Shown here piece by piece: positions 7,642-25,498 of a DNA stretch of 25,498 bases. Every line of letters starts with the position of its first letter. The stretch's first letter is position 1. The translations under genes and the position numbers were made by a program. The notes beneath the pieces are model-generated. The model saw nothing but the letters and a program-made list of their open reading frames with translations. It had not been told where the DNA came from and searched no databases. The DNA comes from a virus: positions 1-25,498 of the IMG/VR virus record IMGVR_UViG_3300026256_000117; one strand, given 5' to 3'.

Positions 7642-8418
7642 ATGTCTTCAAAAGTATCAATTACAGCCAAGAATAGTACACTGTTAAAAAAGAGGCCTGT
7701 ACAGGGTTCTGATCTAACTGAAAATGAAATTTCAGCTATAGATAAGGGTGATGTACAGCGTATTGTCTGGAGTGGTGATTCGGTAGATGGTCATACGAAA
7801 ATCTCGCTTGCAGATGATGCGGGTAACTGGTATATTTATGATGCTCATTGGGATGGACTTCCGGTAGTAGAAGAGGAGATGAATGGTATCACTCCTAAGA
7901 AATTAGATACTCCATACTTTTCACAGAGAGATAATTTTAGAGATTCTAATAGAACATGTTTCTCATCATCATGTGCGATGATGTTAGAGACATTAGTCCC
8001 AGGTACACTCCCTGGTGCGCGTGGAGATGACGAGTATATTAAAACGGTCTTCAGTATTGGTGATACAACGGAAGCATGGGTTCAGGAAGAAGCTTTGTCC
8101 AGGTATGGTGTCGAAGTACGTTATATCCAGAACGGTAGTTTAGATACTTTAAAAGAGCAGATTGATAAAGGTAAACCTATACCAATTGGAATCCTCCACC
8201 ACGGCCCAGGATATGCCCCTGCAGGCGGTGGGCATTGGATTTGTGTGTATGGTTACTTCTGTGATGGCTTCTGGGTCATGGACCCATGGGGCGAGCTTGA
8301 TCACAAGACAGGGCAGTATATTTCAGCAGATGGTGAAGCACTGCGTTATTCCAATGAATTAATCAAAGCCCGATGGACTGTTGCAAGTCCTACTGATGGT
8401 TGGGCAATGCTTGGTTAA
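7642..8418 (+). CDS. C39-like papain-fold cysteine peptidase, probable virion lysin (258 aa)
   Basis: Residues about 87-220 fit the Peptidase_C39-like papain fold. The strand with the oxyanion Gln is PYFSQRDN (Q95). The likely nucleophile is C106 in RTCFSSSCAMMLE (C111 is a second candidate). The His is H198 in GGGHWICVYGY, and the Asp is D214 in VMDPWG. All four catalytic positions appear to be present. The N-terminal 85 residues contain a short beta-type stretch (WYIYDAHWDG), perhaps a small binding domain. There is no signal peptide. In phages such domains usually cleave peptidoglycan cross-links or process virion proteins. The convergent neighbour is a tail lysozyme, so joint peptidoglycan degradation at entry is the better guess. 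The stop overlaps that of the neighbour on the opposite strand by 4 nt. Confidence 0.8.
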   Translation: MSSKVSITAKNSTLLKKRPVQGSDLTENEISAIDKGDVQRIVWSGDSVDGHTKISLADDAGNWYIYDAHWDGLPVVEEEMNGITPKKLDTPYFSQRDNFRDSNRTCFSSSCAMMLETLVPGTLPGARGDDEYIKTVFSIGDTTEAWVQEEALSRYGVEVRYIQNGSLDTLKEQIDKGKPIPIGILHHGPGYAPAGGGHWICVYGYFCDGFWVMDPWGELDHKTGQYISADGEALRYSNELIKARWTVASPTDGWAMLG

Positions 8419-8429
8419 ATAGCACCAAG
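8410..8429. terminator. Small hairpin across two convergent stop codons
   Basis: CTTGGT (8410-8415) and ACCAAG (8424-8429) form a 6-bp stem with an 8-nt loop that contains the stop codons of both convergent genes. No T-run follows on either strand, so it is at best a weak stop or RNA end-protecting structure. Confidence 0.25.
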
Positions 8430-9344
8430 TCCACTACCATAGGTATCAAGCCAAATCCTGTGCTTCTTAGATCCACCTACTTCATCTTTAGGGCGTTCAT
8501 AGTCTCTCATCCATTGATCAGATGCTTGGTGTGCTGATTCAAATGTTGTGTCTAAGTAGGTTTCCCCACGTTTCACTGTGTCTACAAGTGCATAGTCAAG
8601 CTGCCCTTTCCAATCACCTGCTTTAACAAGAGCTTCGACTTCAGGTGTTTGGCGTACATCATAGTATTGGAAGAGTCCACCTGCACCCTTATCATCTCCA
8701 CTAGGTGAAAATGGATTAAAGCTGGATTCACGTGATATATTAGCCATAATGCCTAATGCTTTATTACGTGATAATCCCTTATCTCCAGTCAGATAATTAT
8801 AGTATGCGGTGTGCGTTTCAGTAGGAGTCCCACCATGGGAGCTTGCAGGAACCGTTCCAGTTGTAGAGCCAGAAGTACTAGGTTTTGGCATATTTTGAAG
8901 TAGCTCATCATATCTCTTGGCAGCTTCAGCTGTTACTTTATCTATATCTTCATTATCAGCAACGACGATTTTGGTAGGAATGATTTCAACAGGAGGTGGG
9001 GGATCCTTCTTCTTCTTCGTTGCTTCGATCGCCAACTGTCCCATACCAGCTAACATGCCAGCTTTTTTAACCCAACGTTCAGCATCACTTTTGGCTTTAC
9101 TGACTTTATCATATGCCTTAGTTCTTGCTTCCAGTTCAATTTTATTAGCTCTTACTTTAGCTTCTGCCTCAACAGCAGTAGCTGCTTTACTACTTTGAGC
9201 AGCAATATTAAGAGCTGAAAGCTGGGTGTAATCAGGAGCTGCCTGCCTTGATGTTTCAAGGAATGAAGTTAATGCATTACCTGCTGCATTACCTGCGTTA
9301 ACTATATTAGCACCTGTGTTTTTTCTAGTAGCAGCAAAATTCAT
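8415..9344 (-). CDS. Phage tail lysozyme with N-terminal virion module (309 aa)
   Basis: Residues about 175-300 match the phage tail lysozyme family, a lysozyme-like peptidoglycan hydrolase: YYNYLTGDKGLSRNKALGIM, ANISRESSFNPFSPSGDDKG, GGLFQYYDVRQTPEVE and GDWKGQLDYAL. The catalytic Glu is expected at E206 in SRESSFNP. Residues 1-110 are a separate helical module (SFLETSRQAAPDY, Ala-rich helix, then GMLAGMGQLAI), similar to the whole of the small protein at 5193-5525. A Pro-rich hinge (PPPPVEIIP, 115-123) and a Ser/Thr/Gly linker (about 155-175) join the two. The enzyme is therefore probably carried in the virion for local cell-wall opening rather than being a holin-dependent endolysin. It is the only single-gene minus-strand unit here, with a promoter that overlaps that of the divergent fibre gene. 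Confidence 0.9.
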   Translation of the reverse strand: MNFAATRKNTGANIVNAGNAAGNALTSFLETSRQAAPDYTQLSALNIAAQSSKAATAVEAEAKVRANKIELEARTKAYDKVSKAKSDAERWVKKAGMLAGMGQLAIEATKKKKDPPPPVEIIPTKIVVADNEDIDKVTAEAAKRYDELLQNMPKPSTSGSTTGTVPASSHGGTPTETHTAYYNYLTGDKGLSRNKALGIMANISRESSFNPFSPSGDDKGAGGLFQYYDVRQTPEVEALVKAGDWKGQLDYALVDTVKRGETYLDTTFESAHQASDQWMRDYERPKDEVGGSKKHRIWLDTYGSGLGAI

Positions 9345-9410: not shown

Positions 9411-11054
9411 ATGACAAGTAGGTTAATGCCGTGGGAAATGCCAGGATATCAAAGTGCACCTGGTGGAGGTACTTGGGCAGATAAAACAAAATCGACTGCA
9501 GGAGGTGTGACCGGTAGCCAACCGACAACACCTAATGCAGATCCACAGACAATAAGTGCGAAAGGGAAAGGTCAATCTGTTGATGCTGCTTCTGGCGGTC
9601 AGTTCGGTATGGGTCAAGTATGGGGTCATTTAGCTGAACATAAACCTGGAGAAGATGATGTAGAAGGAAATGCGCTTAAAGATACATTTATGTATGATGC
9701 TGCAACATCACAGATGAATCATCAGCAATCTGTAGCTGCTGGTTGGCAGAATGCAGAGATCCAATCGAATCTAATGAATCAGACTGCTGATCTAGAGTTA
9801 CGTAATACTGGCGCGAATATGGATAGAGAGTTTAATTATGGTATGACGAAGATGGGTACAGAGGCTGATATCCAAGAAAACTTCGCTCAGAATGAAGCGA
9901 TAAGAGATGTAAGCAAGATGGGATTTGCAGGCGATATTCAGCAAGCCCAGACAGGGAAAGAAGGATTAGAGCAACGGGAGGGGATGAAAGAGCAAGGGAC
10001 GCAAGACAGGTCAACCATGGACACTGCTGCCGGTCATAGGAAAACGGAGCAGGAGACTCAGGGAACACAGGATCGACTGAATATGGATAAGGCTTCAGAG
10101 CATCGCGGTACTGAAATCTCTAATCAAGGTACAGAAGATCGTTTAAATATTGATAAACAAAGTGAAGCTGCTGTTGCACAGATTGGCGCTCAAGGCGGCC
10201 AGGATCGTTTAAATATTGGGGAACAAAGTGATGCTACTATTGCACAGATTGGCGCACAAGGTAGTCAGGATCGTTTAAATATTAGTGAGCAAAGTGGTGC
10301 TGATGTTACGAGGATTGGTGCACAAGGTGCACAGGATCGTTTAAATATTGGGGAACAAAGTGATGCTAATATTGCACAGATTGGTGCACAAGGTAGTCAG
10401 GATCGACAAAATATTACATCTCAAGGTACTGTAGATGTTGGTAAAATTACAGCACAAGGTGGAATAGATGTTAACAAGATTAAACAAAGTGGTATGGAGG
10501 ATAGGTCTGCTATTCAGACACAAGGTGTTGAGACGCTAAAACAAATTGGAGCCTCGACAGCTGGTCAAGTCGCTCAGATTACAGCACAAGGTGCACAGGA
10601 TCGAGCAAATATTGGTAAAACTGGTCAGGAGAATAGGAAAGGACAAGTCACGCAAGGTACACAAGATCGTCTGTCCATTACGACTCAAGGTGATGTTGAT
10701 CTGAAGAAGGTTCTAGCTCAAGGAGCACAGGATCGTGCAAATATTGGTGCACAAGGTACAGCTGATGAAGGAAGGATTGAAAAGCAGACAGAAGGTGATA
10801 TTTCTAAAATTGGTGCACAAGGTTCAGAGGATCTTAGAAAGATTGGTGCTCAGGGAGCAGTGGATAAAGGTAATATCGGCGCTCAAGGTGATGTTGATGT
10901 TAAGAAGATTGGAGCATCAGGTGATCAAGATAGATTAACAATTGGAGCACAAGGAGATGATAATCGTAAGACTATGGATAAAGAAGATGATTTGACAGCT
11001 AAGAAGTCAGGGAGACAGCAAGCAAGACAAAGATCACTAGCAAGGAGTTTCTAA
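9411..11054 (+). CDS. Hendecad-repeat fibrous virion protein (547 aa)
   Basis: From residue 192 to 521 the protein is a continuous run of 11-residue repeats, 30 in all by hand count. The best form is IGAQGxQDRLN alternating with forms such as IGEQSDANIAQ. Ile opens most repeats and AQG follows. An 11-residue period without Pro suggests a long right-handed coiled coil or other extended fibre, probably oligomeric. Residues 1-60 are Gly/Pro/Thr-rich, about 60-190 is helical and Gln/Met/Asn-rich, and the C-terminus is basic (RQQARQRSLARSF). Similar AQG..D arrays are, to my knowledge, seen in cyanophage structural proteins, so a tail fibre or internal rod is plausible. The repeats stay in frame at DNA level with a 33-bp period. 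The next gene overlaps the stop by one base. Confidence 0.8.
   Translation: MTSRLMPWEMPGYQSAPGGGTWADKTKSTAGGVTGSQPTTPNADPQTISAKGKGQSVDAASGGQFGMGQVWGHLAEHKPGEDDVEGNALKDTFMYDAATSQMNHQQSVAAGWQNAEIQSNLMNQTADLELRNTGANMDREFNYGMTKMGTEADIQENFAQNEAIRDVSKMGFAGDIQQAQTGKEGLEQREGMKEQGTQDRSTMDTAAGHRKTEQETQGTQDRLNMDKASEHRGTEISNQGTEDRLNIDKQSEAAVAQIGAQGGQDRLNIGEQSDATIAQIGAQGSQDRLNISEQSGADVTRIGAQGAQDRLNIGEQSDANIAQIGAQGSQDRQNITSQGTVDVGKITAQGGIDVNKIKQSGMEDRSAIQTQGVETLKQIGASTAGQVAQITAQGAQDRANIGKTGQENRKGQVTQGTQDRLSITTQGDVDLKKVLAQGAQDRANIGAQGTADEGRIEKQTEGDISKIGAQGSEDLRKIGAQGAVDKGNIGAQGDVDVKKIGASGDQDRLTIGAQGDDNRKTMDKEDDLTAKKSGRQQARQRSLARSF
9984..10973 (+). repeat. 33-bp tandem coding repeats (30 hendecads)
   Basis: Thirty in-frame 33-bp units within the fibre-like gene. 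The strongest copies (10182-10420) alternate two unit types, giving a 66-bp higher-order period; later copies are more diverged. One unit begins with Gln rather than Ile without breaking the register. Confidence 0.85.
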
Positions 11055-11998: not shown

Positions 11999-13537
11999 AT
12001 GGCGATCCCTAGTATTTCATTAGCTTATAGACGTAGCGCATTAATGACGGCTACAAAAGTTACAAGTAAACCTCCATCAGAAGAAGTTCTTAAAGCCCGA
12101 GAAGATTTTAAAGATTTCTGTACAATCATGGGCAAGCCTCCGGCAAAGCATATGCGGGAATGGCATCAACAGTTATGTACTGGAAAGGATAGTGAATGTC
12201 TATTGGGAATAGCTGGACCGAATACAGCAATACTTGCACCGCGAGGCTCTGCGAAAAGTACTGTCCTTGGTTTGTATGCAGCTTGGATGATTGGCCGACA
12301 TGCTGCTGCCAAGCGAATGCTGCGGGTACTCTACATTGCATATATGGTAGACATCAGTCGTGCAAAGTCAGCAACAATCAAAGGGATTTTGACCAGTGCC
12401 AAGTATCGGGAGATCTTCCCGATGGTACGGTTATCAAAGATAAAGAGATCAGATGAATACTGGAGTATTGACTATGAATTTGCAGGAATTGATACAGCAG
12501 GTGAAGAAGCGTTTACCCTTGCGTGTGGCGGTCTCAAGGGAGCAATTACTTCCAAGCGGTCCCAGTTGGTACTTATCGATGACCCTATCAAATCCGCTGC
12601 GTCCATTAACAACCCAGACATACGGCGTGAGATGGAGCAAACGTGGTCGAATGTTATTGCGCCGACAATGTTCCAGGGGGCACGTGCAATTTGCTTGGGT
12701 ACACGGTTTCACTTCGATGACATCCATGCTACGTTATTTGTTCCCAAAAACAACTGGACACAGATTATTCAGAAAGCAGTCATAACAGACGCTGATGGCA
12801 GGCAACGTTCCTACTGGCCAGAATTCTGGTCAATGAAGTATTTGAATGAACGTAAGTTAGAAGATCGTGTTGCCTTTGCATATCAGTACTTAAATACAGC
12901 AGTACAATCAACAGATGTAGGTATTTCTCCAGAATTAATTGTTATGGGCGAAGTGCCGGATGATTATGATTGCTTAGGTGTAGGTATTGATCTCAGTGCT
13001 GGTTTAAATGAGAAAAATGATTGGACAGTATTTACTCTTGCTGGAATAGTAGAAGGTAAGATCTATTTGATTGATCAAAGACGGTTACGGTCAATGGGCA
13101 ACATTGATAAGATGGACGCTTTATGTGAGATGTTATCTGATTGGAATATTCTATTGGAGAATGATGAGGGTCAATATTTTCCAACAGTCTCTCCTTGTAT
13201 AATTTGGCCTGAAGCTGTAGCATATCAAACTTCCTTTGAAGGAGATTTTAAACGTATTATGTTTGATGAACGTGCATTATATAACCTTACATGTTCTCCT
13301 GTTAAAGGATTTAAAGGTGATAAATTAGCAAGACTAAGAGGTGTATTAGGTTTATTTGAGAATAGAAAGATTGTATGGAATAAATGGCGTAAGTGGAATG
13401 TCCTGGAAGATGAGCTTTTAAATTTTGGCCATGCATCTCATGATGATACAGTAGATTCGATGGTTCTTACTATTGGGGGATTACTAAGAAGAGGCTCACT
13501 ACAACTTGATTATCAAGCAGATAAATTCAATTTATAA
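11999..13537 (+). CDS. terL: Large terminase subunit (512 aa)
   Basis: The DNA-packaging motor: an ATPase that pumps phage DNA into the prohead through the portal, and a nuclease that cuts the concatemer. Walker A is APRGSAKST (residues 80-88, K86), Walker B is LVLIDDP (190-196, D194/D195), and the coupling motif is CLGTR (232-236). The C-terminal RNase H-like nuclease shows its first acidic residue in VGIDLS (D331), a middle candidate in WPEAV (E405), and a terminal cluster HASHDDTVDS (D482, D483, D486). All expected motifs are present at normal length, so it should be active. An ATG 15 codons downstream (MTATKVTSK) is an alternative start, but the promoter spacing fits the ATG at 11999. The base composition is more GC-rich around 12100-12850 than in its 3' third. 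Confidence 0.95.
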   Translation: MAIPSISLAYRRSALMTATKVTSKPPSEEVLKAREDFKDFCTIMGKPPAKHMREWHQQLCTGKDSECLLGIAGPNTAILAPRGSAKSTVLGLYAAWMIGRHAAAKRMLRVLYIAYMVDISRAKSATIKGILTSAKYREIFPMVRLSKIKRSDEYWSIDYEFAGIDTAGEEAFTLACGGLKGAITSKRSQLVLIDDPIKSAASINNPDIRREMEQTWSNVIAPTMFQGARAICLGTRFHFDDIHATLFVPKNNWTQIIQKAVITDADGRQRSYWPEFWSMKYLNERKLEDRVAFAYQYLNTAVQSTDVGISPELIVMGEVPDDYDCLGVGIDLSAGLNEKNDWTVFTLAGIVEGKIYLIDQRRLRSMGNIDKMDALCEMLSDWNILLENDEGQYFPTVSPCIIWPEAVAYQTSFEGDFKRIMFDERALYNLTCSPVKGFKGDKLARLRGVLGLFENRKIVWNKWRKWNVLEDELLNFGHASHDDTVDSMVLTIGGLLRRGSLQLDYQADKFNL

Positions 13538-13551: not shown

Positions 13552-13575
13552 TAATAGCAATCAATAGTGATAGTA

Positions 13576-15468
13576 ATGCCCAATAGCAGAATGGCTGGCG
13601 ATAAGTATCGTCCAAACAATAAAGATTATAAAGTACAAGGTGGTAGGGGCAAGAATGCTGGTAATAAGTTTACGAACAAAGATGTAAGAGCTATGCGGGA
13701 TGCTGGTTATAGTGATGGCCAGATTGCAAGGAAAGCTAAACGACATGCTAAGAAAGGAGGTGTTGTAGGCCAAGGTGCACAGAAAAGGATCGACAATAGA
13801 AGTACTACAAAAAATATCAATAAATATGATCCTGGTCGACGGGGTAAGAAGGAAGGTTGGGGTGCTGCAGATATTAGGCATCTAGAAAAGAGTGGATTTA
13901 ATGAGCAGCAGATTGCAGAAAGGATGCAACAAGGTGCAGAAGGTGGACAATCAGTTACTACAGGTGCTCAAAAATTCTTAGATAAATATAAGAGTCAACA
14001 AGTAGCACCTACAGCTGCTCCTCAACAAGGCGAGCATACAGCTCCTAGTGCCGTTCAGAATTCACAGACTCAAAGTGCTACAGCTGGACAGCTGGCAGGC
14101 ACCGGTCAGCAACCAACATTAGAGGATAATAAGCCGGGAGGTAACCAAGATGTAGGGAATCCATCCAATAAAGTAAATGATACTTCTCAAGCTAATGTTG
14201 ATCCCAGAGATCCTGATGGAACACCTACGAGCGGCGGCGCCCAGCAACCTGACTGGGGTGGACGTGAGGATGGCGATGGCGGCGGCGTTTCTTATATGGG
14301 AGGAAGTTCTACTTTTGATGAAATGGGTCAAGGGCCTCAGGCGCAAGGCAGTGCTCTATTGACTGGAACGATGCCAGGAGCGGGTTCTGCTGCTCAGGAT
14401 TTTAAAGACCAGTATACAGGACAAGTTAAGGACGTTATGCAGCAGTATCCAGATGAGGATGGTATTTCACATCCACATCCTGGTAATGGTGACGATGCCC
14501 CTGCTGGTCCTACTCAACCTGGTGCCCCAGATTATAGTACAAGCGATGCATACAATATTGATGACTCATTCCATACAAAGATAACAGGTGCAAGGGATTC
14601 TCATAATACAACGGATTCCTATAATACCTTTATGGAAGGTGCAACGGATTCATACAATACAGATATGGGAGACACTACAGATTCATACAATACTGATCTA
14701 GATTTCAATTTGGATGCTCGTACTGATAACAGGAATTCAGGAAATACAACTGATTCGTTTAATGTAAATACTGATAATCGAAATTCAGGTAATACAAGCA
14801 TAGACAAGCGTAATTCAGGAAATACAAGCATAGACGCTAGTAAGCGTAATGTAGGAAATACAAGCATAGACAAGCGTAATTCAGGAAATACAAGCATAGA
14901 CAATAGTAAGAGTAATGTAGGAAATACAAGCATAGACAAGAGTAATTTTGGAAATACAAGTATAGACAGTAGAACGGATATAACAAAGGATTCTCATAAT
15001 ACATATGACTATACTGACAACTCGGATACTGCAATTAATTCAAACAATCAATATGATTCAGAGATTTCAGATAGCTGGAATACCAATGCCAATCAAGAAG
15101 TTAATCAATCAGTATCAGGTAATTACAATAATGTGAATAACATCCAAACTATTTATGGTAATAACTTAGATGGAAAGATGGATAATCATATGCTCGGCAG
15201 TGCATATATAAATCAAATGCAACAGGGCGGTTTAATGAACCAAGGGTTCGGTGCTAGGGCAGCGGCTGGTGGAATAAGTCAAGCTCAGGATCGTCAGCCT
15301 TGGTCAGTAAGTGGACTAAATGATCATATTGGAAAACGAGAAGGTTATTTTGGAGCTAGAGCATATGAAGCAAATTCAGATGTTTATGGTGATCAAGGTA
15401 ATTGGCAGACTCCTCAGTGGAATTTCCAAACTAACCGTAAAGCTCCAGGCGAAGATGAAGACGAATAA
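13576..15468 (+). CDS. Asn-rich repeat virion protein with duplicated N-terminal domain (630 aa)
   Basis: Start chosen at the ATG 13576 (a GTG three codons earlier is possible). Residues 32-73 and 95-136 are two copies of a small helical domain. They align as FTNKDVRAMRDAGYSDGQIA against WGAADIRHLEKSGFNEQQIA, each ending in GAQK-x-(I/L)-D. The helix-turn-helix-like shape may bind DNA or protein. Residues about 140-320 are a Gln/Gly/Pro-rich linker. About 330-510 is an Asn/Ser/Thr/Asp-rich repeat region: several TDSYNT units, then six GNTSID units (residues 405-464) spaced 10 or 12 residues apart. This composition suggests stacked beta-strands, as in phage fibres. The last 100 residues are mixed and end acidic (GEDEDE). 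Lying between terminase and portal, it is probably a virion or head-assembly protein; its exact role is unknown. Confidence 0.75.
   Translation: MPNSRMAGDKYRPNNKDYKVQGGRGKNAGNKFTNKDVRAMRDAGYSDGQIARKAKRHAKKGGVVGQGAQKRIDNRSTTKNINKYDPGRRGKKEGWGAADIRHLEKSGFNEQQIAERMQQGAEGGQSVTTGAQKFLDKYKSQQVAPTAAPQQGEHTAPSAVQNSQTQSATAGQLAGTGQQPTLEDNKPGGNQDVGNPSNKVNDTSQANVDPRDPDGTPTSGGAQQPDWGGREDGDGGGVSYMGGSSTFDEMGQGPQAQGSALLTGTMPGAGSAAQDFKDQYTGQVKDVMQQYPDEDGISHPHPGNGDDAPAGPTQPGAPDYSTSDAYNIDDSFHTKITGARDSHNTTDSYNTFMEGATDSYNTDMGDTTDSYNTDLDFNLDARTDNRNSGNTTDSFNVNTDNRNSGNTSIDKRNSGNTSIDASKRNVGNTSIDKRNSGNTSIDNSKSNVGNTSIDKSNFGNTSIDSRTDITKDSHNTYDYTDNSDTAINSNNQYDSEISDSWNTNANQEVNQSVSGNYNNVNNIQTIYGNNLDGKMDNHMLGSAYINQMQQGGLMNQGFGARAAAGGISQAQDRQPWSVSGLNDHIGKREGYFGARAYEANSDVYGDQGNWQTPQWNFQTNRKAPGEDEDE
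14788..14967 (+). repeat. Six GNTSID coding repeats (30/36-bp units)
   Basis: Six copies of a GNTSID-coding unit. DNA such as AATACAAGCATAGACAAG is almost identical in most copies, pointing to recent unit duplication. Two of the spacers are longer by six bases, alternating KRNS-type and xSKxNV-type spacers. Confidence 0.8.
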
Positions 15469-15501: not shown

Positions 15502-17805
15502 ATGAATAACAATAGCATCGTTGAAACTCAATTCCAGCAGATATTATCAGCTGCTAAAGAGCGTCGTGGAGACCAAGCTGTAGACACTATGATTGTGTCC
15601 TCGCATTTAGCACAAATGCGTATGTTTATGTTGAGACGAGGAGTTGAATTTTATGCAGATCAAGATTCATATGGAATGCGTCGGGAGTTTATAGCACAAG
15701 TATGTGAACATAACATGCTTGATATGAAATTAGAGAGTATTGTCGATTATTTTTTGTGTGATGGTCAGGGTCTTTTTTATTTCAGACCTTCAGGAGAAAG
15801 TTATCAGATTCTATATTTCCCTAAAGATAGCTATAGAGCATTTCGCACACAAAATGGAGAAATTGAAAGTGTTGAATTGATCTATTCATTTAATGTACGT
15901 GAGGCAAATAATATTGATAGCTATGCAATGGGTAATAGTAGAGGTGGTAAGAAGAAGTATATAAGGCTAAAGGTATTTAAGGATAAGATTGAGCAGACAG
16001 TTTCAAATGAAAAGATTGAATTTGAGAATCAGATGGGAAATCCGATCATGCACATGCCTGGTCATACAGAGACTTTGAGTAATAGCCTTGGTTTTATTCC
16101 AGCTATAGAAATTTATAATTATATGGATTGTACAGGTGAAGCTACCGGTAATGGGGAATTTAATTGGTTAGCAAATCAGATTTTATATCATGATGAGCTT
16201 GTACGGAATATTCGTAAGAACATGAAGTTCTTTGGTAATCCTACACTTGTTTCTAGTAGACCTAAGCATGACCTGATCGAGTCAGGTGAAGAGAATGCTA
16301 TGAGACCTACTATCAGCTCTATGGCGGGCTTCTCTTCCGCAGATAGACCTAGTACTAGGGTAAGTCAGCCTTTCGGCGGCCCAAGCCCATTAGACGGTCA
16401 AATCAAGGTCCCCCGTGTCATAGCGAACCTTGAGCCAACCGACAGGGTGAACTATATGACACCTGATAGCGTTTCAGGTGATCAGAACATGTATGTTAAA
16501 CAGTATCGTTCTGAAATCCGCTTAGCATTAGGAGGTGTAGATGATATTGACTTTGGAACAGCGTCTACTGCTTATGAAATTAAAACTTTATATGGACGTG
16601 TAGCTGCCACTGCTGAAAAGAAAGCTAAGGCAATGTTTACATATGGTCTATGTAAAATTTTCGGAATGATTATTAAACATGAAGAATATATGTTTGAAGA
16701 ATCATTTGCTCAAGCTACTGGATTAACGAAACCTTCGTATCCGCTACAAGAAGATTTTGGCGGTCAAGATGAAGCATATGCAGTAGCTCTACAAGAGTAC
16801 AATAAAAACATTACTGTGTTTGAACAAAGTAGATCAGAATCTATACGTGCTACACTTGAAACAGGAGAAATCCCCCAAGGTGTAGTTGGACTTATCCCTG
16901 ACGGCAGCACGAAAGTTGCTTGGCGTTGGCAAGGCGAAGTTTTTGAAGAAAGCTCAGACGACATCCTCAATAACAGTATTGTCGTTCGTAATTTACAAGA
17001 ACTTGGCGTTGATTCTATTCAAGCTTTGCAATACCTGTTCCCAGGTAAGACCGAAGAAGAAAGAGCTTCAATGCTATCAGGATATCCATTTAGGATGGTT
17101 CAACAAACCCAACAGTCTTTAAACAGCTTTATCAGTTTACTTGGTCAACTTTATCAGTTGCCTCACCCACAGACTCCAGAGTTACCTCTTGCGTCTGACC
17201 CGAATCTTGATATCACAGGATTCCTATATCGATCATTAGAGTTTTTACGTAAGGAGTTAAGTTACAGTGGAAGTTACAAGTCCTCAAGCGATGGCACCAG
17301 CCCAAGCACCCTCAGCGATGCCGATCGCATCCGTGCCAAGCTCGGTCGCCCCATCCGTGATGAGCCAACCATCACCCTCCCAGGTGTCGGCTCCAACCTA
17401 CCAACCGCAGGCAACACCCCAGGCACCAACCTACCAGCAGGCTCCGGCCCAGCAAGCTTCGGCTCCGGCAGCGGCGGGCAATCCATGGCAGGACGCGTTC
17501 CAGGCGCTCAGCCAAAGCCTGAATACACCCAACCTCTCCCCGGCCCCGGTTCAATACTCGGCGTATCAGACCCCAACTCCGCAGGCGGCTTCCCAAGCCA
17601 GCTGGGGTTCGCCAATGCAACAGCAAGCCCCCAGTTACCATTCGGGCAATCAGACTTACAATCCCCAAGCTTCAACCCAAGCCTTCTCGCAGGAGCAGGT
17701 GCAGGCGCTGGTGCACAACGCCCAGCAGCAGGGAATAGCCCACGCACAAAGTCAGGTACAAACACAGGACGCGTATCTAAGCCAGGTAAGCGACGAAAGT
17801 CTTGA
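15502..17805 (+). CDS. Portal protein with a tail overprinted by the scaffold gene (767 aa)
   Basis: The portal forms the dodecameric ring through which DNA enters and leaves and on which the terminase docks. Portal-like stretches are YFLCDGQGLFYFRPSGESYQ (about 88-107), the helical region with ILYHDELVRNIRKNMKFFG (about 227-245), and TASTAYEIKTLYGRVAATAE (about 354-373), a usual part of the stem/wing region. Residues 1 to about 588 look like ordinary phage protein. Residues 589-767 are low-complexity Gly/Pro/Ser/Ala with a basic end (SKPGKRRKS). This tail lies wholly inside the scaffold gene, read in another frame, and in DNA visibly richer in G+C (76 of 120 bases at 17281-17400, against 21 of 60 at 15781-15840). 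The tail is probably an overprinted extension. Function of the core is inferred from motifs and gene order (terminase, portal, scaffold, capsid). Confidence 0.85.
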   Translation: MNNNSIVETQFQQILSAAKERRGDQAVDTMIVSSHLAQMRMFMLRRGVEFYADQDSYGMRREFIAQVCEHNMLDMKLESIVDYFLCDGQGLFYFRPSGESYQILYFPKDSYRAFRTQNGEIESVELIYSFNVREANNIDSYAMGNSRGGKKKYIRLKVFKDKIEQTVSNEKIEFENQMGNPIMHMPGHTETLSNSLGFIPAIEIYNYMDCTGEATGNGEFNWLANQILYHDELVRNIRKNMKFFGNPTLVSSRPKHDLIESGEENAMRPTISSMAGFSSADRPSTRVSQPFGGPSPLDGQIKVPRVIANLEPTDRVNYMTPDSVSGDQNMYVKQYRSEIRLALGGVDDIDFGTASTAYEIKTLYGRVAATAEKKAKAMFTYGLCKIFGMIIKHEEYMFEESFAQATGLTKPSYPLQEDFGGQDEAYAVALQEYNKNITVFEQSRSESIRATLETGEIPQGVVGLIPDGSTKVAWRWQGEVFEESSDDILNNSIVVRNLQELGVDSIQALQYLFPGKTEEERASMLSGYPFRMVQQTQQSLNSFISLLGQLYQLPHPQTPELPLASDPNLDITGFLYRSLEFLRKELSYSGSYKSSSDGTSPSTLSDADRIRAKLGRPIRDEPTITLPGVGSNLPTAGNTPGTNLPAGSGPASFGSGSGGQSMAGRVPGAQPKPEYTQPLPGPGSILGVSDPNSAGGFPSQLGFANATASPQLPFGQSDLQSPSFNPSLLAGAGAGAGAQRPAAGNSPRTKSGTNTGRVSKPGKRRKS
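17251..17256 (+). promoter_or_regulatory. Shine-Dalgarno AAGGAG for the internal scaffold start
   Basis: AAGGAG inside the portal gene, 10 nt before the GTG at 17267. It gives the overlapping scaffold frame its own ribosome entry, so no frameshift is needed. Confidence 0.6.
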
Positions 17806-18304
17806 AGTCCTTCAGCACTTCGGAGCTGAAGCCCCTGCACTTCTGAACAACTATGCATGTGCAGTGGAAGATGCGCTGATTGAGCAAGTTGATCGTGGTA
17901 ACACCCAGAATCTCATGCTTGAGGTTGCTGGTGAAGAGCGTGCAGCAATGAATCTCATGCTCACCAACCCTGATGTACTGGCTGATTATGTGAACGGTTT
18001 CTTTGGTCCAGAAGGTCCATATCCTACCGAAACTCCTGATGAAACTTATGCACGTGAAGAAGCTCAAGCTCGTATGAACTTTGAAGCTGAAATCCAAGCA
18101 CAGGAACAGCGTGGAGTTCCACAGAACTTCCAACGTCCTCAAATGAATATGCCTACTCCAGGTCGTCAAGCTCAGCAGAATACCCAGAACTTCTGGGGCT
18201 CCTTCTCTGAAATGATGGATTCCAGTCCAGAGCAAGCATGGCAGTATCTGTCTTCTGCTCCTCAAGGTGCACTCCAAAGTAAGCTCCTCGTTCAGGACAC
18301 TTGA
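17267..18304 (+). CDS. Capsid scaffold protein, overlapping the portal gene (345 aa)
   Basis: Starts at a GTG with AAGGAG 10 nt upstream; an in-frame stop at 17258-17260 limits how far back it could begin. An ATG at 17291 (residue 9) is the alternative start. Residues 1-145 are Pro/Gln/Ala/Ser-rich and disordered-looking, all encoded across the portal 3' end. The rest is acidic and helical, with LTNPDVLADYVNGFFGPEGP (about residues 224-243), a segment I associate with scaffold proteins of short-tailed cyanophages, then a Glu/Gln-rich coil (REEAQARMNFEAEIQAQEQR). Scaffolds guide capsid assembly and leave before DNA packaging. Position after the portal agrees. Codon usage in the non-overlapping half resembles that of the capsid gene (many C- and T-ending Pro, Arg and Leu codons), as expected for high expression. 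Confidence 0.8.
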   Translation: MEVTSPQAMAPAQAPSAMPIASVPSSVAPSVMSQPSPSQVSAPTYQPQATPQAPTYQQAPAQQASAPAAAGNPWQDAFQALSQSLNTPNLSPAPVQYSAYQTPTPQAASQASWGSPMQQQAPSYHSGNQTYNPQASTQAFSQEQVQALVHNAQQQGIAHAQSQVQTQDAYLSQVSDESLEVLQHFGAEAPALLNNYACAVEDALIEQVDRGNTQNLMLEVAGEERAAMNLMLTNPDVLADYVNGFFGPEGPYPTETPDETYAREEAQARMNFEAEIQAQEQRGVPQNFQRPQMNMPTPGRQAQQNTQNFWGSFSEMMDSSPEQAWQYLSSAPQGALQSKLLVQDT

Positions 18305-19487: not shown

Positions 19488-20444
19488 ATGCCGCAACCTA
19501 AAGCATCAGGGGATTCCGTTCGTTCTTATTTACGGGATATCGGACGTGTACCTTTGCTTGCGCATGATGAGGAAATCCTCTTAGGTCGCCAAGTACAGAG
19601 AATGATGGAACTAGAAGGAACAAGAGATATTTGCGAATCTTGTAATGGCGTCAAATTGACAGACAAAGAGCTAGCTGAAGAGCTATGCATAGATTATAAA
19701 GACTTACGCCGTGAATTACGTGAAGGAACCAAAGCAAAAGAAAGAATGGTTACAGCAAACCTCCGTCTGGTGGTCTCAGTTGCGAAGAAGTATACCAAGC
19801 GGAATATGGAGTTGCTCGACATTATTCAAGAAGGAACAATCGGTCTCGTCCGTGGTGTGGAGAAGTTTGATCCTGGTCGCGGTTATAAGTTCAGTACCTA
19901 TGCTTATTGGTGGATTCGTCAAGGGATCACCAGAGCGATTGCGGAGAAATCCAGAGCTATACGATTACCCATCCATGTCACTGAAAATTTGAATCGACTA
20001 AAGAAAGCACAACGTGAGCTTTCACAGTTAAATGGCAGGATGCCAGATGTGTTTCAATTAGCAGAAGAACTTGATTTAACCGTAGATGAAATAAAGGATT
20101 TGATGTGTAAGGCAAGACAACCGACTTCATTGGAAATTAAGATCGGAGAGAATCGTGATACATGTTTAATCGATTTACTAGAAGATGAAAGTCAATCACC
20201 AGAAATACTTTTAGAGAAAAGCTGTATTAAAGAGCATATACAGGATTTAATAATAGATCTGCCTGATATGCAAGCCGCAGTTATTTGTATGAGATATGGT
20301 ATTGGTGAGGATGTACTAGAGCCAATGTCAATGACTGCAATCGGTCAAATCTTAAATATGAGTAGAGATAGGGTACGAACTCTTGAAACCAAAGCTTTGA
20401 GAGTGCTAAAAAGTAAAAGTAATGAAGTAGAAGATTACCGGTAA
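19488..20444 (+). CDS. Cyanobacterial-type sigma-70 factor (318 aa)
   Basis: Directs RNA polymerase to promoters. Region 1.2 is residues 9-40 (DSVRSYLRDIGRVPLLAHDE). Region 2 is about 82-160, with core-binding ANLRLVVSVAKKYTKRN, then DIIQEGTIGLVRGVEKFDPG and the melting/-10 recognition part KFSTYAYWWIRQGITRAI. Region 3 is about 165-225. Region 4 is about 250-310, ending in the recognition helix MSRDRVRTLETKALRVL. All regions are present, at the length of cyanobacterial group 2 factors. Region 1.1 is missing, as usual for that group. The style of regions 1.2 and 2 points to acquisition from a cyanobacterial host. The gene lies alone among structural genes, with a weak -10 element upstream. It is the obvious candidate to read the motif shared by the late units; this is inference. 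Confidence 0.93.
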   Translation: MPQPKASGDSVRSYLRDIGRVPLLAHDEEILLGRQVQRMMELEGTRDICESCNGVKLTDKELAEELCIDYKDLRRELREGTKAKERMVTANLRLVVSVAKKYTKRNMELLDIIQEGTIGLVRGVEKFDPGRGYKFSTYAYWWIRQGITRAIAEKSRAIRLPIHVTENLNRLKKAQRELSQLNGRMPDVFQLAEELDLTVDEIKDLMCKARQPTSLEIKIGENRDTCLIDLLEDESQSPEILLEKSCIKEHIQDLIIDLPDMQAAVICMRYGIGEDVLEPMSMTAIGQILNMSRDRVRTLETKALRVLKSKSNEVEDYR

Positions 20445-21902: not shown

Positions 21903-21911
21903 CTATTCTAA
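21903..21911 (-). promoter_or_regulatory. Late-type promoter -10 element TTAGAATAG, minus strand
   Basis: On the minus strand TAGAAT (21910 down to 21905) ends 25-26 nt before the ATG at 21879. Its first three bases are the stop codon of the HNH gene. Confidence 0.55.
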
Positions 21912-22279
21912 ATCATTTTTTGTTCATTACGTTTCACCCACTTAAGGTTATTGACATGACAATTGGTTTTATTTTTATCAATATGCTGAACAACTGTACA
22001 ATCTTTAGTAGTACCAAGGGGAGTTGGCGGAGGATCAAGGAATGCCAAAGCTACTAATTTGTGTACACAAACATATTTAGGTTTCTGTCTACCTATACGT
22101 TGTGTAAGAGTAACCATAGGGTAGCCAGCTTTGTGGAATTTATATTTCAGCAATCTTTCGACATTTCCTTTTGTACTTTTAATTTTCCCTTCTCGATTGA
22201 CGTAATATTCAATACAGCATTCAAATCCTGGCAAAGTATGTATAGGTATCCATTCTGTAGTATCAATAAAATGTTCCAT
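21908..22279 (-). CDS. HNH homing endonuclease-like protein with NUMOD4 domain (123 aa)
   Basis: Residues 8-36 fit a NUMOD4 DNA-binding segment (TEWIPIHTLPGFE, then YYVNREGKIKS). Residues about 67-120 fit the HNH_3 nuclease fold: VCVHKLVALAFL with H73, then VVQHIDKNKTNCHVNNLKW with H99 and N110/N111, the expected metal-binding and catalytic positions. Such free-standing nucleases cut DNA at a target site and spread by repair. The length is typical and the frame is intact. It lies on the minus strand beside the capsid gene and has no good copy of the promoter motif seen at other unit heads, which fits a recently inserted selfish gene. A role in DNA packaging has been reported for some phage HNH proteins, but those usually sit next to the terminase. 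Confidence 0.85.
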   Translation of the reverse strand: MEHFIDTTEWIPIHTLPGFECCIEYYVNREGKIKSTKGNVERLLKYKFHKAGYPMVTLTQRIGRQKPKYVCVHKLVALAFLDPPPTPLGTTKDCTVVQHIDKNKTNCHVNNLKWVKRNEQKMI

Positions 22280-22383: not shown

Positions 22384-23541
22384 ATGTGGATTGATAATGA
22401 TTTTCCGAAGCTTCTAGGTGCAGAACTGTACCGCCCCCACCCGGCATACATCATTGAGATGGCAGTTGAGCCAGTGGTTGTTCACGACTTTAGTAAGCAA
22501 CCCGGTCAGACTGTTCAACTCGATCGTTACCGTTTCTGGGGCAAGCCCGGCACTAAAGAGAGCCGTGAGCGTACAGCTGATCAAACACTTGGAACAGCTT
22601 CGGCACGAAACATCGTGAAGGATAAGGTTCTTGTCACTCTTCGTGAGTACACTGGACCTGCAGACACCCGCGACACTGCACAGCCTTCTACATTTAAAGT
22701 CGCACGTGAGACCCTTATCACTGCTCAGCGTTTGCTGCTTGATACAGGTAATTTGAACGTTTTCCACCAGTCAATTGGTAGCCTTACGCTACTTGATGAT
22801 TACCGCCGTTGGAGGGACCGTGTGTTCGCCAACGAACTCATGAAAGCTGATGATGGAAGTCAAGCTTCTGAAGAGCGTGGCGGATACTATCTGCCTTTGG
22901 ATAAAACCAAAGGAGGTACAGGCGGCACCCTTGGTGTAACATATGATACTGGTGAAGACGCTAAGTTCACAGTAAAAACTGACTTGCTGGAAGTTGTTAA
23001 GGATATGCGCAAGCGTAATGTCCCAACATTCTCAGATGGTTACTACCGTTGCATCTGCGACCCTACTGCAATGATGCATCTGCGTCAGGACCCCGATTTC
23101 AGAGAGATCGCTAAGTATCCTGGCCAAGGTATGATCAATCCGATGCAGCCTAACCAAGCACCTAACGCTACCTTCTTCCAAGGTATGGGTCCTGCTTATG
23201 GTCAAGCCGGTTTCGTAGCTGGACAGCCAGTGATGCCTACCGGATTTCTTTTTGAGGGAGTTCGTTGGTTTGAATCAACAAACCTTCCTGAACAAATCGA
23301 TAATCTGATCATTAATGATGCTCCTGGACCGAACAACACCGCTGAAGATTTTACTGCAGCTCAGTTGATTTTCTTCGGTCCTCAAGCACTCGGCGTAGGT
23401 ATCGGTGGAAACAATGCTCAGATTCTTTTGAACAATAATGATGACTTCTCACGATTCATCATCATGATCTGGAGTCTGTTTGCCGGTTTTGAAGTTCTTA
23501 ACAAAGACTTCATTACGGTTGCCTACTCTTTCGTATATTGA
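22384..23541 (+). CDS. Major capsid protein (385 aa)
   Basis: Forms the icosahedral shell. The 385-residue length, position in the head module and sequence style (DRYRFWGKPGTKESRERTAD near residues 47-66, DDYRRWRDRVFANELMKAD near 133-151, CDPTAMMHLRQDP near 220-232) fit an HK97-fold capsid of the N4 gp56-like kind; this subfamily call is tentative. Codon use is richer in G/C-ending and favoured codons than in the flanking small genes, as expected for the most abundant virion protein. It has a clear AGGAG ribosome-binding site, rare in this window, and the next gene follows after 15 nt with an even stronger one. No protease gene is visible nearby, so maturation cleavage cannot be inferred. Confidence 0.85.
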   Translation: MWIDNDFPKLLGAELYRPHPAYIIEMAVEPVVVHDFSKQPGQTVQLDRYRFWGKPGTKESRERTADQTLGTASARNIVKDKVLVTLREYTGPADTRDTAQPSTFKVARETLITAQRLLLDTGNLNVFHQSIGSLTLLDDYRRWRDRVFANELMKADDGSQASEERGGYYLPLDKTKGGTGGTLGVTYDTGEDAKFTVKTDLLEVVKDMRKRNVPTFSDGYYRCICDPTAMMHLRQDPDFREIAKYPGQGMINPMQPNQAPNATFFQGMGPAYGQAGFVAGQPVMPTGFLFEGVRWFESTNLPEQIDNLIINDAPGPNNTAEDFTAAQLIFFGPQALGVGIGGNNAQILLNNNDDFSRFIIMIWSLFAGFEVLNKDFITVAYSFVY

Positions 23542-24792: not shown

Positions 24793-25498
24793 ATGGCATT
24801 AAGCGATAAGCTTGCTGAACATAAAAATACTGAATATGTCTCCTCAGGTGGTAGTAATACTTCCTATAAATCAGGTCATAAAGAGCGTCTTCAGCATAAG
24901 AAAGATAAAAAAGACGCTGCTAAAAAAGCAGCATCTGACGCAGCCGCTGCTGCAGCAAAGAAAAAAGCTGATGATAAGGCCGCTAATAAAACTGCTAGAC
25001 AGGAGACAAGAGCGGCTAATAAAACTGCTAGACAGGATAAAAGAGCAGCTAATAAAACTGCTAGACAGGAGACAAGAGCAGCCAAGCAAGCAGCAAAGAA
25101 AAAAGCTGCTAATAAAACTGCTAGACAGGCGAAAAGGGCTGCTAATAAAACTGCTAGACAGGAGACAAGAGCAGCCAAGCAAGCAGCAAAAGCAGCACCT
25201 AAAAAGCCAGCACCTAAAAAGCCAGTAGCTAAAAAACCTTTAGCAGCAAAACGTAAAAGGCTTAATGCAAAAGTAGCAGCTGGGAAGATTACCGCTGCTC
25301 AAAAGAAAAAAAGAATGACTAAGGCTAGAGCTAAAGCAAAGCCAGCACCGGCAAAGCCAGCTCCTAAAAAGCCAGTAGCTAAAAAACCTTTAGCAGTAAA
25401 ACGTAAAAGGCTTAAGGCAAAAGTAGCAGCCGGGAAGATAACCGTTGCTCAAAAGAGAAAAAGAATGACTAAGGCTAGAGCTAAAGCAAAGCCTGTAG
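24793..25498 (+). CDS. Histone H1-like Lys/Ala-rich repeat protein, 3' end outside window
   Basis: The frame starts at ATG 24793 and is open to the end of the window (235 codons seen). Residues 1-35 are ordinary and polar (MALSDKLAEHKNTEYVSSGG). After that the protein is almost entirely Lys, Ala, Arg, Pro and Thr. Residues 63 to about 140 hold five copies of AANKTARQxxR with AAKQAAK spacers. From about 137 on there are two copies, 50 residues apart, of a Pro/Lys stretch (KKPVAKKPLA) followed by KRKRL, AAGKIT and KKRMTKARAKAKP. The composition is that of histone H1 tails and bacterial H1-like proteins, which bind and condense DNA. A role with packaged phage DNA or with the host nucleoid is inferred. 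Recent unit duplication is clear at DNA level. Shadow frames through this repeat are not genes. Confidence 0.8.
   Translation, partial: MALSDKLAEHKNTEYVSSGGSNTSYKSGHKERLQHKKDKKDAAKKAASDAAAAAAKKKADDKAANKTARQETRAANKTARQDKRAANKTARQETRAAKQAAKKKAANKTARQAKRAANKTARQETRAAKQAAKAAPKKPAPKKPVAKKPLAAKRKRLNAKVAAGKITAAQKKKRMTKARAKAKPAPAKPAPKKPVAKKPLAVKRKRLKAKVAAGKITVAQKRKRMTKARAKAKPV
24979..25170 (+). repeat. Five 33-bp AANKTARQ coding repeats
   Basis: Units begin at 24979, 25012, 25045, 25105 and 25138, with a 27-bp spacer after the third. Most bases are identical (GCTAATAAAACTGCTAGACA in each). They encode 11 residues, the same unit length as in the unrelated hendecad gene. Confidence 0.85.
25201..25498 (+). 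repeat. 150-bp tandem coding repeat, cut by window end
   Basis: The block with GCCAGTAGCTAAAAAACC recurs exactly 150 bp apart (25221 and 25371), and the two copies differ at few positions up to the window end. Further copies may follow outside. Confidence 0.8.

Follow-up and report, generated by a model that had tools for sequence, protein, structure and literature searches.

A long out-of-frame overlap between the portal gene and a putative scaffold gene in S-EIV1-like cyanophages

Introduction

Two proteins can be read from one stretch of DNA in different frames, as in the genes of phiX174 and in lambda Rz/Rz1. A related arrangement is found in the lambda C/Nu3 pair, in which the scaffold arises from an internal start within another head gene, in the same frame and with amino-acid sequence in common. 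In the T7-like phages considered here for comparison (T7 gp8-gp9-gp10, Syn5 gp37-gp38-gp39 and eight further Autographiviridae), the portal, scaffold and capsid genes follow each other in this order, the portal and scaffold genes share no more than 1-4 nt, if they overlap at all, and the portals have no tail comparable to the one described below. Pro/Gln/Ala-rich arms like that of our downstream gene are present in the scaffolds of the T7-like phages DL62, AC2 and Aci08. In general, overlaps between same-strand neighbour genes in prokaryotes mostly measure 1-4 nt, and overlaps longer than 60 bp are selected against (PMC3887535).

The closest described system is that of Synechococcus phage S-EIV1 (KJ410740), the type phage of the group, which has the same gene pair as the locus analyzed here (portal AHV82224, next CDS AHV82225). 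In the S-EIV1 record the downstream gene is annotated as its last 133 aa only and no overlap is described, which means that an overlap of 554 nt was missed. Here we analyze the corresponding locus in a virus record of 25,498 bases from an S-EIV1-like cyanophage (the window, meaning the whole stretch of DNA at this length). Its portal gene and the following gene, a putative scaffold gene, overlap out of frame by 539 nt. The internal start is reminiscent of Nu3, but Nu3 is in frame with C while the two frames in the window differ. Compared to phiX174 and Rz/Rz1, different genes are involved: in the present case, both genes serve head assembly in a dsDNA phage, and they overlap end to start over approximately 500 nt. 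Since the genomes of this lineage are large (79 kb in S-EIV1), a shortage of coding space hardly accounts for such a length. Overprinting as such is known, but our literature search, which was of limited coverage, found no paper reporting a portal/scaffold overlap.

Results and Discussion

Layout of the locus and properties of the overlap

The features of the window on which the analysis relies are the following:

11999-13537, plus strand: terminase large subunit gene (phrog_38, E 1.6e-68)
15502-17805, plus strand: portal protein gene (identified by fold search), ORF of 767 aa with core residues 1-588, then a Gly/Pro/Ser-rich tail of 179 aa; the tail terminates in the basic peptide RVSKPGKRRKS
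17250-17256, plus strand: predicted Shine-Dalgarno (SD) sequence TAAGGAG of the putative scaffold gene, 10 nt between it and the GTG at 17267
17267-17805, plus strand: out-of-frame overlap of portal and putative scaffold genes, 539 nt
17267-18304, plus strand: putative scaffold gene, ORF of 345 aa with GTG start; predicted disordered Pro/Gln/Ala/Ser-rich arm, residues 1-179 (within the overlap), then a predicted helical C-terminal part
17768-17805, plus strand: basic C-terminal peptide of the portal and its TGA stop; the same bases correspond to LSQVSDESLE in the scaffold frame
22384-23541, plus strand: major capsid protein gene (phrog_1357 major head protein, E 5.5e-19), 67% identical to that of S-EIV1

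The portal frame is open from 15502 to the TGA at 17803-17805, and the second ORF, in the +1 frame relative to the portal, extends from the GTG at 17267 to 18304. In this arrangement position 1 of the portal codons coincides with position 3 of the scaffold codons, and position 2 of the scaffold codons with position 3 of the portal codons. The AAGGAG of the downstream gene doubles as the codons for Lys584-Glu585 of the portal core. A first-pass annotation, made from the letters of the window alone, had claimed that the portal frame runs 179 residues past its core (which ends at residue 588) through the 5' part of the scaffold gene, and that the internal GTG is preceded by an AAGGAG. These coordinates were exact, the shared segment being 539 nt, and the TAAGGAG was found at the expected place. 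The low complexity of both products in the shared segment also matches the earlier description, and its G+C counts (76 of 120 bases in the overlap, 21 of 60 in the portal core) were reproduced exactly upon recounting. The overlap as a whole has a GC content of 61%, compared to 39% in the portal core and 48% in the remaining scaffold ORF, and we attribute this richness to Pro/Ala/Gln codons being read in two frames. A foreign GC-rich insert was considered and rejected, because the GC content of the overlap is approximately 59-66% in all members of the group, while that of the cores ranges from 37% to 53%. No matches were obtained in Rfam and tRNA scans.

Conservation of the overlap in relatives

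By scanning IMG/VR as well as genome contigs we collected 334 loci, 293 of which contain the portal stop. These 293 loci represent 236 distinct cores and fall into four clades at approximately 45-56% portal identity, one of which includes the isolate S-EIV1. The overlap is present in 292 of them with a length of 455-638 nt (median 524), and it starts at a fixed position relative to the portal core. The start codon of the downstream gene is ATG in 213 and GTG in 80 of the 293 loci; S-EIV1, whose portal has 767 aa like that of the window and a core 48.6% identical to it, uses ATG instead of the GTG of the window. The only exception, L107, has its portal stop 9 nt from a contig end.

As a guard against bias towards close relatives, a second sample was drawn from IMG/VR with a short degenerate DNA motif instead of ranking by similarity; some of its contigs were shared with the first set. 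A portal was present in all 119 loci checked, and the overlap was found in 79 of the 80 loci in which the portal end was visible, adding a fifth clade. In the exception, L412, a deletion within the overlap has shifted both frames, so that the scaffold start is fused with the C-terminus of the portal; this may be a true mutant or an assembly error. A homologue with a portal stop near the end of the core would have refuted the first-pass reading, but no genuine case was encountered, L107 and L412 being the sole departures. In both samples together, the overlap is kept in approximately 370 sampled genomes of the worldwide S-EIV1-like cyanophage group. At the sequence level, this shows that the overlap arose long ago and is fixed in the lineage. 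An outgroup without the overlap was not found: tblastn of the portal, scaffold and capsid proteins against 50,697 phages matched S-EIV1 only, and relatives of the terminase large subunit are just 20-24% identical, approximately. We note that the contigs L163-L173 of this phage group are found in public MAGs whose titles name Euryarchaeota, Bacteroidetes, Blastopirellula and others; binning contamination is the probable reason.

Both coding frames are fully open across the overlap in 292/292 relatives. When the scaffold amino acids were kept and their codons shuffled, the portal frame remained open in 3.4% of the shuffles on average, and in the reverse shuffle, with the portal amino acids fixed, the scaffold frame was open in 2.1%. 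Thus, openness would be unremarkable in a single sequence, yet hundreds of diverged relatives are all open, and on this comparison it is not due to chance. The first-pass annotation had cautioned that minus frames are open here as well. This was true in part for the window, where the longest open minus stretches comprise 98-99 codons, but not for the relatives, in which the three minus frames are fully open in only 14, 1 and 0 of 292. Minus-strand genes in the overlap were rejected on this ground, and so was coding by the third plus frame, which is open in none of the 292 relatives.

Selection on both frames

If only one frame were coding, its third position would be expected to evolve fast, and in the overlap this is the case for neither frame. 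In 29 independent pairs, the substitution rates at portal positions 1, 2 and 3 were 0.155, 0.070 and 0.123 in the overlap. Outside of it the corresponding rates by codon position were 0.094, 0.051 and 0.336 in the portal core and 0.094, 0.062 and 0.287 in the remaining scaffold gene (29 pairs). The first-pass annotation had proposed to look for synonymous-site constraint in both frames, and such constraint was detected in each of them. Neither of the two refuting conditions it had named was fulfilled, and its interpretation is supported. The divergence at fourfold sites of the portal frame falls from 0.309 in the core to 0.056 in the overlap, i.e. these sites evolve 5.5 times slower (104/104 independent pairs), and that of the scaffold frame falls from 0.273 outside to 0.107 inside the overlap, 2.5 times slower (92/96 pairs).

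The strong constraint on the portal sites speaks against the possibility that the portal frame alone is real here and that the downstream gene starts after the portal stop. The latter corresponds to the GenBank record of S-EIV1, with its CDS of 133 aa starting directly past the portal stop. However, the scaffold frame is open in all 292 relatives with start and spacing fixed, the tblastn match of the window scaffold protein reaches into the S-EIV1 overlap, and different clades have motifs of the arm in common, for example NPW..AF. We therefore regard a downstream gene confined to the region after the stop as scarcely credible.

The opposite possibility is that only the downstream frame is real and the portal frame owes its openness to chance, Pro/Gln/Ala/Thr codons seldom producing stops in it. 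Indeed, codons able to give a portal stop make up 15% of the scaffold arm compared to 23% of the remaining scaffold gene, and the above-mentioned 3.4% is not a tiny chance for a single sequence. This explanation is already contradicted by the data, and we give it almost no weight. First, the scaffold fourfold sites themselves are slowed down within the overlap. Second, scaffold-silent changes are held down except where the portal frame, too, reads them as silent: scaffold-silent C/T differences occur at a frequency of 0.142 where they are also portal-silent (leucine codons) and of 0.031 elsewhere (Fisher p 1.8e-22, which is approximate, since sites are treated as independent), and the same C/T contexts outside of the overlap show no difference in that direction. 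Of the 928 scaffold-silent C/T sites at which a T would introduce a stop into the portal frame, 0 showed a difference. Third, five clades retain the portal motifs and the basic end, without any stop in the portal frame.

The end of the portal is also more basic than expected from shuffles which preserve the scaffold protein. The last 15 residues of the portal carry a mean net charge of +5.8 compared to +2.25 under synonymous shuffling of the scaffold codons, the charge exceeds the shuffled mean in 292/292 relatives, and a basic peptide is present in every relative. Short motifs and deeply conserved residues are shared across clades in both products. A generally slow or GC-shielded region was also considered as an explanation and rejected: nonsynonymous change is higher in the overlap than in the flanks, which excludes mere slowness of the region, and doubly silent sites change at a normal rate. 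Based on the slowdown of fourfold sites in both frames and on the doubly silent C/T contrast, we conclude, as far as sequence comparison can tell, that both frames are under protein-level selection. Although no proteomic or ribosome-profiling data are available, we have hardly any doubt that the 455-638 nt maintained in two frames represent a genuine dual-coding region.

Proposed translation of the downstream gene

The predicted pairing with the anti-SD sequence is stronger at scaffold starts (mean -7.0 kcal/mol) than at portal starts (mean -3.5 kcal/mol), and the scaffold SD is the stronger one in 251/288 loci. The AAGGAG has constant spacing in the window clade and in the S-EIV1 clade. Some deep clades (L167-L170, L358, L363) have a weak SD only, and thus strong internal initiation is not universal. 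Many scaffold copies are needed per twelve portal subunits, and the stronger scaffold SD fits this need.

We suggest the following mechanism, which is inferred in the absence of protein or ribosome-profiling data. Ribosomes on the portal frame would continue into the tail, while other ribosomes would start within the portal gene at the GTG or ATG behind the strong AAGGAG and produce an excess of the downstream protein, which is most likely the scaffold. One message would thus support two independent translation events. Alternatively, a +1 ribosomal frameshift could lead from the portal into a portal-scaffold fusion without any independent downstream protein, in line with the +1 frame offset and the adjacency of the two ORFs. 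This alternative is very improbable: the start codon and the AAGGAG at fixed spacing are retained in two large clades, a scaffold-frame stop (TAA at 17258-17260) lies just upstream of the start, and no slippery site was identified, although a systematic search was not conducted. With internal initiation as the preferred reading, dual coding of a portal tail and an internally initiated scaffold is, taken as a whole, the best explanation of the data, and we hold it with high confidence.

Identity of the two proteins

The product of 15502-17805 was identified as a portal by fold search, i.e. with the help of a predicted model. It matches PHROG 20475, 'virion structural protein' in the category head and packaging (E 2e-174, profile over residues 10-704). 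AlphaFold2 predicted the fold with low confidence only (mean pLDDT 44); the top Foldseek matches of this model in the PDB are portals (E 5e-6 to 1e-3), with the portal of cyanophage P-SCSP1u as the best match (E 5e-6). The homologue in L172 weakly matches the phrog_64 portal (E 0.02). No Pfam match was obtained for the window portal, and hhalign against T7-like portals resulted in a weak alignment of 85 columns only. A PDB sequence search gave nothing useful.

The downstream protein has no family match in PHROG or Pfam, and hhalign against T7-type scaffolds was negative. Thus, sequence homology of the two window proteins to their T7-like counterparts could not be demonstrated by hhalign, and because homology to a known scaffold is lacking we use the term putative scaffold. 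Its designation relies on gene order and predicted shape. The gene is located between the portal and major capsid genes, like the scaffold genes of T7 and Syn5, and the AlphaFold2 prediction shows pLDDT <50 at residues 1-72 and 86-140 and helices at 181-345. On these grounds alone, scaffold is the most likely assignment. It cannot be excluded that dual coding is real and the downstream gene encodes another head protein. The missing family match and the several small genes and the sigma factor, which separate it from the capsid gene in the window, leave room for this. However, the S-EIV1 order of portal, downstream gene, one 162-aa ORF and capsid resembles T7-like phages, and a disordered arm followed by helices fits a scaffold; we therefore find another head protein unlikely, without dismissing it. 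Taken together, the portal and scaffold identities are probably correct.

Possible role of the shared segment

The portal would carry twelve long, flexible, basic-ended tails, which probably reach into the interior of the head and could bind scaffold or DNA there; the disordered arm would be the flexible N-terminus of the scaffold. That the portal tail acts on scaffold or DNA within the head is a tentative inference which may well turn out to be wrong. It is even more speculative, and in our opinion rather unlikely, that the portal tail, with its basic end, and the arm of the scaffold bind to one another and thereby start head assembly at the portal. If true, one stretch of DNA would have evolved both halves of a portal/scaffold interface. 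The overlap itself gives rise to a testable hypothesis that connects the portal tail with the recruitment of scaffold.

The overlap is also relevant for annotation. Gene callers penalise overlaps and can lose the front half of scaffold genes. In the S-EIV1 reference genome, the annotation is corrected by our analysis, as the downstream gene extends into the portal gene. Furthermore, the hundreds of diverged sequences constitute a natural data set for studies of dual coding.

Which of the two frames came first remains undecided, since the evidence points both ways. The tailless portals of T7-like phages and the scaffold arms that exist there without an overlap suggest that the portal grew into the scaffold gene. 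On the other hand, the scaffold frame is better adapted in codon usage in just 58/268 cases; the better fit of the portal frame suggests the reverse, that the portal frame is older.

Additional observations

Several other features were observed in the window and in S-EIV1. A sigma-70 family factor is encoded between the scaffold and capsid genes (19488-20444); among the 92 loci whose sequence continues for more than 4 kb past the portal, 54 carry it. Directly 5' of the capsid gene, the minus strand contains an HNH/NUMOD4 homing-endonuclease-like gene (21908-22279). In S-EIV1 the major capsid ORF (L081:23296-24453) is annotated as two CDS, one of them on the opposite strand. The S-EIV1 terminase large subunit (L081:16523-19063, corresponding to KJ410740 54080-56620) is interrupted by an intein (Pfam Intein_splicing, E 1.4e-11); the terminase of the window has none, and its tblastn match to the S-EIV1 terminase is split in two pieces. 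A minus-strand gene amid plus-strand genes (8415-9344) encodes a phage tail lysozyme domain (Phage_lysozyme2, E 3e-14). Two ORFs of the structural region (9411-11054 and 13567-15468) lack family matches and consist mostly of short repeats, with 22-residue units of the IGAQGxQDRLNI type and units of the NSGNTSIDKR type. Finally, the end of the record (24982-25493) is composed of tandem repeats of 33, 15 and 150 bp, one frame of which is rich in lysine and alanine.
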